Shown here one piece after another: positions 23,005 through 24,732 of a DNA stretch of 24,732 bases. Made by a program: the position numbers and the translations under genes. The notes beneath the pieces are model-generated. The model had not been told where the DNA came from. It searched no databases and worked only from the letters and a program-made list of their open reading frames with translations. How positions within the stretch are numbered: position 1 is the first letter of the stretch; the number at the start of each line of letters is the position of its first letter. The stretch is taken from the NCBI GenBank assembly GCA_025996865.1, contig BNTV01000074.1, forward strand, positions 1 through 24,732, given 5' to 3'. This DNA comes from Bacteroidia bacterium (GTDB lineage Bacteria > Bacteroidota > Bacteroidia > Bacteroidales > Azobacteroidaceae).

Positions 23005-23135
23005 CGATACAAGCGGTAATTTTTGTATAATTATTGATATTGCTCTTCTTTTTGCCAATGAAAGACAAAATCACTTGCAAGTGTAAAGTTTTTCAAAAAA
23101 ATATTGTAATATTAACTTTTTTAATTATTTTTGTC

Positions 23136-23333
23136 ATGAAAAAAATGGATTTTGTGCAAATGGAAGTCATCAATGGAGGCTACAGATCGGATGGTTGGAA
23201 ATGGACAGTGGAACAACATATAGGTTGTGCCATTGGTGGGGCGATAGCTGGTTTTGGATTGATGGGGGTAGGTGCTTATGTGGCCTGCCTTTTGGTTTTG
23301 GTAGAGGATGATTCGGTTATGGTAGATAATTAA
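23136..23333 (+). CDS. Small double-glycine-leader peptide, bacteriocin-like
   Basis: I place the start at ATG 23136, since the product then opens with a 15-residue leader, MKKMDFVQMEVINGG, close to the MKKxxFxxMExxxGG leaders of secreted peptides in Bacteroidota. Cleavage after GG would leave a 50-residue core. The core has a polar N-terminal part (YRSDGWKWTVEQHI), then a glycine-rich hydrophobic segment with GxxxG-like spacing (GCAIGGAIAGFGLMGVGAYVAC) and an acidic tail (VEDDSVMVDN). Two cysteines, Cys31 and Cys51, could form a disulfide. Glycine-rich cores of this kind occur in class II bacteriocins. The frame extends upstream to 23034, but that would bury the leader. A hairpin and a DUF5687 transporter gene follow. 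Function is inferred. Confidence 0.7.
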   Translation: MKKMDFVQMEVINGGYRSDGWKWTVEQHIGCAIGGAIAGFGLMGVGAYVACLLVLVEDDSVMVDN

Positions 23334-23343
23334 ATTTAGAAAA

Positions 23344-23377
23344 AGCCTCAAGAACATATGTAATTGTTCTTGAGGTT
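23344..23377 (+). terminator. Hairpin between peptide and transporter genes, terminator or attenuator
   Basis: CCTCAAGAAC (23346-23355) pairs perfectly with GTTCTTGAGG (23366-23375), extended by G-U and A-T pairs. The T-run after it is interrupted (TTCTGTATCATTTTT), so termination may be partial. That would give much peptide mRNA and less transporter mRNA. Confidence 0.6.
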
Positions 23378-23395
23378 CTGTATCATTTTTAGTAT

Positions 23396-24634
23396 ATGCA
23401 TATTTATGATTTAGCTTTGCTACAATGGAAATCATTTTTCCGTTCCCCTTTATTGGAACAAACAATTGTGTTTCGTTTGTTGATAGGGCTATGGACACTC
23501 TCTTTACTCTATTTGCTTTATGTAACAGGTTCTTTTATGGAAGCATACTTTGGGAATAAATTAACTCAACCGTTGATTTTATTTGCCCTTTTCTCTATAT
23601 GTGGATTTGTGATTGACCTGTTGGTAAAATATCTATTCAAAAAGCCTCATTTTCAATTCAAATCATTCTTTCGTTTCCCGGAAAGCAAGAGTAGCATAAA
23701 TTATTATCTAATCATTAGGGAACTATACAGTGTTTGGAATTTTTATTTATTGATTATTTTCTTCCCTTTTTTGTCCGGCAGAATTTATCCGGTTTTGGGA
23801 TTAGTTATAACGATTACATTATTCCTTTTTTTATATCTTGTCCAACTTTCAATCAGTTTGTTGGTAAACCGGTTCAAAGAAAATAGAACATATTCTTCCA
23901 AGACAAAATTGTTTTTTAGAACAAAAATAGAATTGAAAAGCGCTATAGCCAACTATTTATTGCTAAATGTAAAGATGACACTGCGTTCTCCGAGATTAAG
24001 ATACCAAATGTTACTATCCGTAGTCTTATCCGGCTTATACATATATCTGCTTCATCATTCTAAAATTGAATCTTACGGTATGAGACTATTTTTGATTTCT
24101 GTCATTTTTTTAATATTATCTCTTGGACTTAATCAATTTCTATTTTCTGCCGAAGCTGTTTTTTTTGACCACTTGATGATTCTCCCCCGTTTCAGGTTAA
24201 TTTTACAGGCAAAATATCTTTTTTACTTGTTTTTTTCTGTAATTCTATTGGGAACTTTCTTTTTTATTGTACCCATGAATTGGGAGGCGGTTATAGAATT
24301 ATTAGCTATTTTTTGCTATTGTTCGGGAACAATTACTTTAGTTTCTTTCTGTGGAATTTTATTTGTAAATACCAAAATAGATTTGTTTGGCGCTCAATCT
24401 AAAATGATAACTCCCCCACCAACTACACAATCATTGTCAAACTTATTGATTTATGCTGTTTTTCTCGCATTGGCTTATGCTGTTTATTGTTTGTTTTCAA
24501 GAGAAATCAGTATATACTTCATGTTATTTGTTGGCGTAATTTCTATCTTGTACCGCAATATATGGTTTAATTACCTGTATAAATGTTTTTCTGCCAATAA
24601 ATACGAAAAAATGGAAATTTTCAGAATACAATAA
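23396..24634 (+). CDS. DUF5687 family membrane protein, probable ABC transporter permease
   Basis: The 412-residue protein has about ten hydrophobic segments: near 25-46, 56-77, 108-128, 131-158, 205-225, 230-255, 268-290, 295-320, 345-365 and 368-390. Its opening, LLQWKSFFRSPLLEQTIVFRLLIG, looks like the DUF5687 family of Bacteroidota, whose genes are normally followed by an ABC ATPase. One follows here, 11 bp downstream. It is somewhat shorter than I remember for the family. Substrate is unknown; export of, or immunity to, the preceding GG-leader peptide is one possibility. Base composition is more AT-rich than the rest of the window. Confidence 0.72.
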   Translation: MHIYDLALLQWKSFFRSPLLEQTIVFRLLIGLWTLSLLYLLYVTGSFMEAYFGNKLTQPLILFALFSICGFVIDLLVKYLFKKPHFQFKSFFRFPESKSSINYYLIIRELYSVWNFYLLIIFFPFLSGRIYPVLGLVITITLFLFLYLVQLSISLLVNRFKENRTYSSKTKLFFRTKIELKSAIANYLLLNVKMTLRSPRLRYQMLLSVVLSGLYIYLLHHSKIESYGMRLFLISVIFLILSLGLNQFLFSAEAVFFDHLMILPRFRLILQAKYLFYLFFSVILLGTFFFIVPMNWEAVIELLAIFCYCSGTITLVSFCGILFVNTKIDLFGAQSKMITPPPTTQSLSNLLIYAVFLALAYAVYCLFSREISIYFMLFVGVISILYRNIWFNYLYKCFSANKYEKMEIFRIQ

Positions 24635-24645
24635 GAACTAAGTTT

Positions 24646-24732
24646 ATGGAACTCGAAATTAAAAATCTGACAAAAATATATAATAAGCAAACGGTTTTAG
24701 ACATTAAAGAGTTGGCAATTAACAAGGGAGAG
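24646..24732 (+). CDS. ABC transporter ATP-binding protein, 5' part only
   Basis: ATG 24646 opens a frame that runs off the window after 29 codons. It reads MELEIKNLTKIYNKQTVLDI and then KELAINKGE, the standard N-terminus of an ABC ATPase just before the Walker A motif. It lies 11 bp after the DUF5687 gene and should be its energizing partner. Confidence 0.85.
   Translation, partial: MELEIKNLTKIYNKQTVLDIKELAINKGE

Follow-up and report, generated by a model that had tools for sequence, protein, structure and literature searches.

A probable bacteroidetocin-like peptide operon with a DUF5687–ATPase pair as its predicted self-immunity pump, cut by the end of a Bacteroidia contig

In the parts of Coyne et al. 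(2019; PMC6671954) consulted, the bacteroidetocin region is described as a protein with five transmembrane (TM) segments, the peptide, a thiol oxidoreductase and a double-glycine-peptidase ATP-binding cassette (ABC) exporter, in that order, and the peptide itself as having a leader of 15–16 amino acids (aa) that ends in a double glycine (GG) and at least two Cys. The bacteroidetocin target is BamA, according to the consulted part of a further article (PMC8546649). ABC exporters with a C39 peptidase domain (C39 exporters) are present in most of the Bacteroidales clusters for ribosomally synthesized and post-translationally modified peptides that have been surveyed, and the text consulted from that survey does not mention DUF5687 (PMC10352776). 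Immunity genes often encode ABC transporters (PMC10598978, in part); enterocin AS-48 has a second ABC transporter, encoded by as-48EFGH, which serves self-protection and exports no new peptide (PMC8538875, in part). We analyzed a window of 24,732 bases that is one complete contig of a Bacteroidia bacterium (contig C74 of genome G000; GenBank BNTV01000074.1). The operon part described here occupies its last 1.6 kb and consists of a gene for a GG-leader peptide, a hairpin, a gene for a DUF5687 permease and the start of an ABC ATPase gene (Table 1). With a probability of roughly 0.64, we read it as the beginning (5′ end) of a bacteriocin operon of a Bacteroidales bacterium, of bacteroidetocin-like type (class II, with a double-glycine leader and a disulfide), which is cut by the contig end and in which the DUF5687–ATPase pair is the self-immunity ABC pump.

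The initial annotation had described a 65-residue GG-leader peptide with two Cys, a hairpin, a DUF5687 permease and the beginning of an ABC ATPase, all of which were confirmed by the reading frames, Pfam and a fold test. A strict GG-leader pattern matched once in the 49 kb of the window (both strands), at the peptide gene, and three times in control loci totalling 554 kb. Three proteins in a set of 5.8 billion are related to the peptide, with identities of 97%, 81% and 57%; the one at 97% may be the cluster that contains the window's own protein (its source is shown as '-'). Because these related proteins exist, the 65-aa open reading frame (ORF) is, as judged from sequence, no chance ORF. Both Cys are invariant across an alignment of six peptides that includes the one in the window. 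The leader of 15 aa agrees with the bacteroidetocin type (15–16 aa, ending in GG), and the core of 50 aa with two Cys agrees with the mature peptides of that type (about 35–50 aa with at least two Cys in the consulted parts of PMC6671954). The precursor also resembles the class II, double-glycine-leader family Bacteriocin_IIc (PF10439): residues 2–48 align to the profile (E=4.3e-4), but the score of 20.6 bits stays under the curated cut-off of 27.1, and membership at that cut-off is not reached.

The permease is a clear member of DUF5687 (PF18940; 103.3 bits, cut-off 33), a family for which a literature text search by either name returned no paper. It matches only positions 1–155 and 253–482 of the profile, with about 100 central positions missing, and we call this the short form; ordinary DUF5687 copies are about 495 aa long. 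The short forms make up a clade with 100/100 support, separate from the ordinary copies of the same genomes, in a tree that carried a long-branch warning. The link between GG peptide and DUF5687 is real for this divergent subfamily and none was seen for ordinary DUF5687. A GG peptide lies 60–110 nucleotides (nt) upstream of the permease in six of the eight distinct short-DUF5687 loci (window included), whereas no GG peptide occurs in the 700 nt upstream of the permease in a set of 40 ordinary DUF5687 loci. This set is made up of ten loci examined in a wide context and the 30 top scorers of the order survey described below, and two of its members hold less than 200 nt of upstream sequence. The initial annotation had named a lack of the pairing in relatives, or beside other DUF5687 genes, as its refutation; the pairing stood for the short subfamily and did not extend to the ordinary genes. 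The tally comprised 62 rows, namely nine for the eight short loci, the 40 ordinary ones and 13 that were set aside as split, partial, distant or kit-linked (L035 twice, L071, L072, L073, L074, L075, L076, L078, L079, L128 and L134 twice). A pattern peptide was found within 700 nt in three of the 13, that is, one of the L035 rows, L128 and one of the L134 rows.

The short form is narrowly distributed. A scan of the species-genome collection gave seven short-DUF5687 loci, six of them already among the contigs examined, which makes eight distinct loci with the window. Their carriers are metagenome-assembled genomes (MAGs) named Dysgonamonadaceae, Candidatus Symbiothrix and Candidatus Azobacteroides, and also Bacteroidia bacterium MS495-7; the two Candidatus names are known from symbionts of termite-gut flagellates. 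When the peptide was searched in 97 genomes, 23 had some match at E≤1, and besides G000 only G040, G030, G036 and G009 were convincing (E from 2e-15 to 4e-7), with a weak match in G026. A DUF5687 family match of any form occurs in 82 of 393 genomes of the order, in a survey that scored at most three candidates per genome and may have missed weak second copies. G000 itself carries, on contig C16, a separate ordinary DUF5687 gene with its ATPase and no peptide (L080:6449-8748); this ordinary pair is widespread in Bacteroidales and mostly occurs once per genome. DUF5687 is present as two half-size ORFs at L078:1072-2447, L071:234-1653, L073:6905-8238, L079:941-2324 and L035:9654-11062, with an ABC ATPase adjoining in each case except L073, where the contig ends. 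At L035 a GG peptide precedes the split DUF5687, and the 18 kb examined there showed no C39 exporter; this is perhaps an orphan immunity locus.

Three relatives show what follows the permease in an intact operon. The order in L031, L033 and L096 is precursor, DUF5687 permease, ABC ATPase, a membrane protein of ~210 aa, a thioredoxin-like protein (CxxC) and a C39-peptidase ABC exporter of ~700 aa, all on a single strand and closely spaced except for ~290 nt ahead of the L031 exporter. The CxxC is invariant in the seven thioredoxin-like proteins aligned, with thioredoxin-fold Pfam matches in L033 and L078 and a weak one in L074. The ~210-aa protein has five predicted TM segments in 17 of 24 members counted (15 of the 22 that belong to kits, as defined below), and one of them (L096:3250-3882) and its relatives have a confidently predicted fold (predicted local distance difference test score, pLDDT, 91.8) with no clear match to a solved structure. 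The exporter is full length in L031, L033, L096, L078 and L074, and the relatives' exporters retain the Cys, His and Asp positions that we take to be the C39 motif. L078 and L074 have the same operon parts with other peptides and a split or distant DUF5687. Only exporter remnants are left in L032, fused to the thioredoxin-like ORF, and L034, L214 and L231 each have the exporter split over two ORFs; because of this, some of these operons look decayed or misassembled. At E≤0.001 no PADLOC model recognized the peptide, the DUF5687 permease or the ~210-aa membrane protein, and the PADLOC matches to the ATPase and the thioredoxin-like protein look generic.

In the three intact relatives, three genes separate the permease from the C39 exporter, so an exporter probably lies past the contig end in the window strain too. 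The initial annotation had found no C39 exporter in the window, and this held: genome G000 (88% complete) has four C39 peptidase matches, none of them on contig C74. It had also posed an alternative, with the DUF5687 transporter either exporting the peptide or conferring immunity, or else a C39 exporter lying outside the window; a combination is now favored, in which the exporter is probably outside and immunity is a better fit for the DUF5687 pair than export. The four C39 exporters of G000 are at L090, L091, L092 and L093 (contigs C89, C5, C79 and C7), and no DUF5687 was noticed among the ORFs read around them. By reading only, GG-type peptides lie near at least three of them (L090, L092 and L093), and L091 has glycosyltransferase- and LanC-like neighbors.

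To place the pair among related operons, we define a kit as a gene for the ~210-aa protein with a thioredoxin-like and/or a C39-exporter gene adjoining. Searches for the ~210-aa protein matched 18 (first profile) and 17 (second profile) of 393 genomes of the order and 19 of 395 genomes of the class. Fifteen regions were taken from the 18 genomes at the order level, with three of E 0.001–0.009 omitted, and 13 of them were kits. At the class level 20 regions were taken from 22 matches (one was already included and one was omitted); eight were kits, and the other 12 had a homolog of the ~210-aa protein outside a kit, without thioredoxin or strong exporter neighbors. A plasmid of Flammeovirga pectinis carries a kit, and the total of 29 kits includes this plasmid and the termite-type loci. 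An exporter on a plasmid of Phocaeicola salanitronis is of another type, with HlyD/TolC neighbors.

An added permease and ATPase is present in 13 of the 29 kits and missing in 16. The permease is DUF5687-like in L031, L032, L033, L034, L096, L078, L074, L128 and L134, and the ATPases of these kits score 338–410 bits against a profile built in this analysis. In L124, L129, L132 and L216 it is instead a pair of small membrane ORFs, with ATPases at 112–154 bits against the same profile; the permease ORFs of L124, L129 and L132 had no Pfam match of note on scanning. Such a pair is optional, as these counts show, and the DUF5687–ATPase is an added part of the kit, because the remaining genes match the published bacteroidetocin gene classes. 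Kit L128 has the long form of DUF5687, which groups on the ordinary side of the tree (support 85/78, not strong), and this placement suggests that DUF5687 was recruited to kits at least two times. We call the cluster bacteroidetocin-like and not a bacteroidetocin, since the comparison covered gene classes and peptide features; no record named as a bacteroidetocin producer appeared among the protein and plasmid matches listed. Shared with the bacteroidetocins, as far as they are described in the sections consulted, are the GG leader of 15–16 aa, the minimum of two Cys and, in the kits of the relatives, the classes of TM protein, thiol oxidoreductase and peptidase ABC exporter, the oxidoreductase being a part of most bacteroidetocin-type regions. 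The arrangement differs, with the precursor first and the DUF5687 permease and ABC ATPase next, whereas the TM protein comes first in the published order.

Table 1. Features of the operon part at the end of the window (positions in the 24,732-base contig).
Feature	Position	Strand	Remark
Peptide precursor ORF, 65 aa	ATG 23136, stop 23331-23333	+	Reading frame
Double-glycine leader, 15 aa, MKKMDFVQMEVINGG	23136..23180	+	Hydrophobic residues at -12, -7, -4; GG at -2/-1
Core peptide, 50 aa (stop included in span), Gly-rich, hydrophobic, Cys at precursor residues 31 and 51	23181..23333	+	
Hairpin, 12-bp stem, between peptide and permease genes	23345..23376	.	Putative attenuator/processing site
DUF5687 permease of the short form, 412 aa; a simple hydropathy count predicts 8 TM segments	23396..24634	+	PF18940
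ABC ATPase gene start, 29 codons, cut by contig end	24646..24732	+	Alignable to the N-termini of full-length ATPases from relatives

The hairpin between peptide and permease genes is stable and recurrent. With its flanks it folds at -19.7 kcal/mol (z -5.45), and none of 200 shuffles was equally good. All eight other loci that were folded have a hairpin in the same place, unlike in sequence, with z from -2.3 to -6.8; for L031 the folded stretch extended into the annotated permease ORF, and the shorter gap by itself folds weakly. Upstream of the peptide gene there is no full match to TTTG-N17-23-TAnnTTTG, which we take to be the promoter consensus, and a partial one at 23104-23133.

From the genes of the intact relatives we infer the following scheme of cleavage, disulfide formation, killing and immunity. 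The C39 exporter would cut the leader after GG and export the core, and the thioredoxin-like protein would make or maintain a disulfide bond linking the conserved Cys. The core, being hydrophobic, would insert into a bacterial membrane. On the simplest account the gene behind the precursor provides immunity; by analogy with enterocin AS-48, the DUF5687–ATPase may be a second ABC transporter that clears the peptide from the inner membrane of the producer, and the hairpin may provide a high ratio of peptide to helper transcript. As in the as-48EFGH and lantibiotic LanEFG systems (AS-48 as given in the consulted part of PMC8538875), a second ABC transporter apart from the exporter stands in a bacteriocin cluster. 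The differences are that the permease here is DUF5687 and that the ATPases of the relatives fall far under the LanF-type cut-off.

Kits with and without the pair differ in the kind of peptide. Peptides were counted in 27 kits; L216 and L130 gave no pattern peptide, and one L034 ORF lying inside another gene was discarded manually. The leader is 15 aa long in 44 of 47 peptides, and 45 of the 47 cores have at least two Cys. All 12 kits with the pair contain exclusively hydrophobic peptides that could span a membrane, compared with five of the 15 without it, at hydropathy cut-offs of 1.45 and 1.4 that were picked post hoc (a cut-off of 1.6 on an earlier set gave 11 of 12 versus 4 of 13). The highest 19-residue hydropathy per kit is 1.86 with the pair and 1.06 without it (Mann-Whitney p=0.009; p=0.013 with the termite-type short-DUF5687 loci cut to one), and the difference in Gly+Ala is borderline (p 0.067 and 0.032).

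The gene directly after the precursor also varies with the peptide. Among hydrophobic peptide groups that have a partner, 20 of 21 are followed by a membrane partner, either an ABC permease (12) or a protein of 54–117 aa with 1–3 TM segments (8), whereas all 11 hydrophilic groups that have one are followed by a secreted-looking protein of ~190–420 aa, its N-terminus reading as a signal peptide by eye. In a Fisher test this contrast gives p=9e-8 (6e-7 once the termite-type loci are merged) from a tally made by hand, with two judgement picks where a small ORF intervenes (the second group of L214 and the last of L126), and these p-values and those for hydropathy are only a guide, because we settled on classes and thresholds during inspection of the data and because the loci are related. 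In kits without the pair, a tiny membrane protein stands after eight of 11 hydrophobic groups. Examples are L131:4784-5062, L215:9004-9177, L125:7887-8078, L214:11832-12143 and L127:7631-7984; these five had no Pfam match above cut-off when scanned, and we regard the tiny proteins of kits without the ABC pair as candidate small immunity proteins. Secreted-looking proteins after hydrophilic peptides include L126:4319-5581, L133:8614-9495, L231:9066-10007 and L139:8394-9302. Ten of the 12 such partners were scanned, of which six gave CarboxypepD_reg-like PF13715 (E≤0.01; three above cut-off), one Porph_ging PF09697, one a weak match to DUF4412 and two nothing; they are possible envelope partners or immunity proteins.

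We tentatively propose, at rather less than even odds, a rule in which each precursor gene is directly followed by that of its immunity partner, the kind of partner depending on the site of action of the peptide. Hydrophobic peptides acting on the inner membrane would be paired with an ABC pump, whether of DUF5687 or of a different permease pair, or with a tiny 1–3 TM protein, and hydrophilic peptides acting on the envelope with a secreted CarboxypepD_reg/GLPGLI-like protein. DUF5687–ATPase, an ordinary transporter in about a fifth of Bacteroidales genomes, would have been recruited at least two times.

The pair might instead export or mature the peptide, through a second export step or by handing the substrate over to the C39 exporter. 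Its genes do lie between precursor and exporter in one apparent operon, and it might be required only for very hydrophobic peptides. This is unlikely, since the 16 kits without the pair include L125, L131, L214, L215 and L218, which have hydrophobic peptides, and the tiny protein that often takes its place after such peptides cannot be an ABC exporter. Self-immunity therefore fits the DUF5687–ATPase better than export. We consider it less probable still that the peptide is a signal instead of a toxin, such as a pheromone or a factor in the interaction with a host protist, and is sensed, imported or cleared by the ABC pair. In other bacteria some pheromones are indeed GG-leader peptides with C39 exporters, and one type of small helix-turn-helix (HTH)-like ORF occurs in nine of 29 kit loci (five of which built the profile) versus three of 22 control loci, with other HTH-like ORFs near kits L031, L128 and L218 (by reading). 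A 50-aa core with a membrane-spanning hydrophobic stretch and a weak Bacteriocin_IIc match speaks for a toxin, however; the recurring HTH-like type was not found in the window, and no sensor kinase was noticed on reading the ORFs beside the peptide in L031, L033 and L096. Examples of this ORF type are L034:5862-6236, L074:13525-13818, L078:369-614, L124:4979-5188 and L127:3971-4363, and XRE-like ORFs were seen, again by reading, close to where the peptides are encoded in L031 and L128.

A chance neighborhood in one lineage, with an ordinary Bacteroidales envelope transporter that happens to stand beside a peptide gene, is largely refuted and very improbable. The lack of peptides beside the 40 ordinary genes would agree with it, as would the L081 copy, which adjoins succinate dehydrogenase genes (by reading), and the origin of all short-form loci found from a narrow set of MAGs. 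Yet G000 keeps its separate ordinary copy on C16, the short forms are a distinct clade, and DUF5687 also occurs in kits L128 and L134 outside the family and, split or distant, in L078 and L074.

Several observations count against a self-immunity pump in a bacteroidetocin-like operon. For the bacteroidetocins themselves, the consulted parts of PMC6671954 report that no immunity gene was found, that neither helper protected a sensitive strain and that producers kill themselves. Two of the eight short-DUF5687 loci, L070 and L077 (the gene in two ORFs), have no peptide, both on contigs that end soon after. No partner follows directly after the peptides of L074, L135, L212 and L213 and one of L134, and in L134 the ATPase lies several kb from the permease gene, so that the pair is not adjacent. 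The grand average of hydropathy (GRAVY) does not differ significantly between kits with and without the pair (p 0.61 for the maximum and 0.20 for the mean), and the hydropathy threshold and partner classes followed sight of the data from loci that are not independent. Likeness of the ATPase to TIGR03740 (lantibiotic protection) was rejected as evidence of immunity, because three ordinary DUF5687 ATPases match it just as well (115–124 bits) as the full ATPases of L096, L033, L078, L074 and L128 (113–129 bits), all far under the cut-off of 309.75. The window stops inside the ATPase gene and holds no gene for the membrane protein, the thioredoxin-like protein or a C39 exporter; the contigs of G000 have no match to the ~210-aa protein profiles, and their best ATPase match is the ordinary copy on C16. 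The second half of the operon was thus not found in its own genome assembly, and we can only infer its presence in the window strain from the relatives.

DUF5687 is a Bacteroidota permease family, by its Pfam name of unknown function, one subfamily of which is now tied to bacteriocin-type operons with a predicted role in immunity. The known bacteroidetocins, as described in the sections consulted, have no immunity gene and kill their own producers; an operon that carries its own pump, if the prediction is true, would illustrate a way in which bacteroidetocin-like operons can be self-protected. The precursor–partner rule, if true, would make it possible to predict the immunity genes of many peptide operons that are still unstudied, in this case in MAGs that bear the names of termite-gut symbionts.

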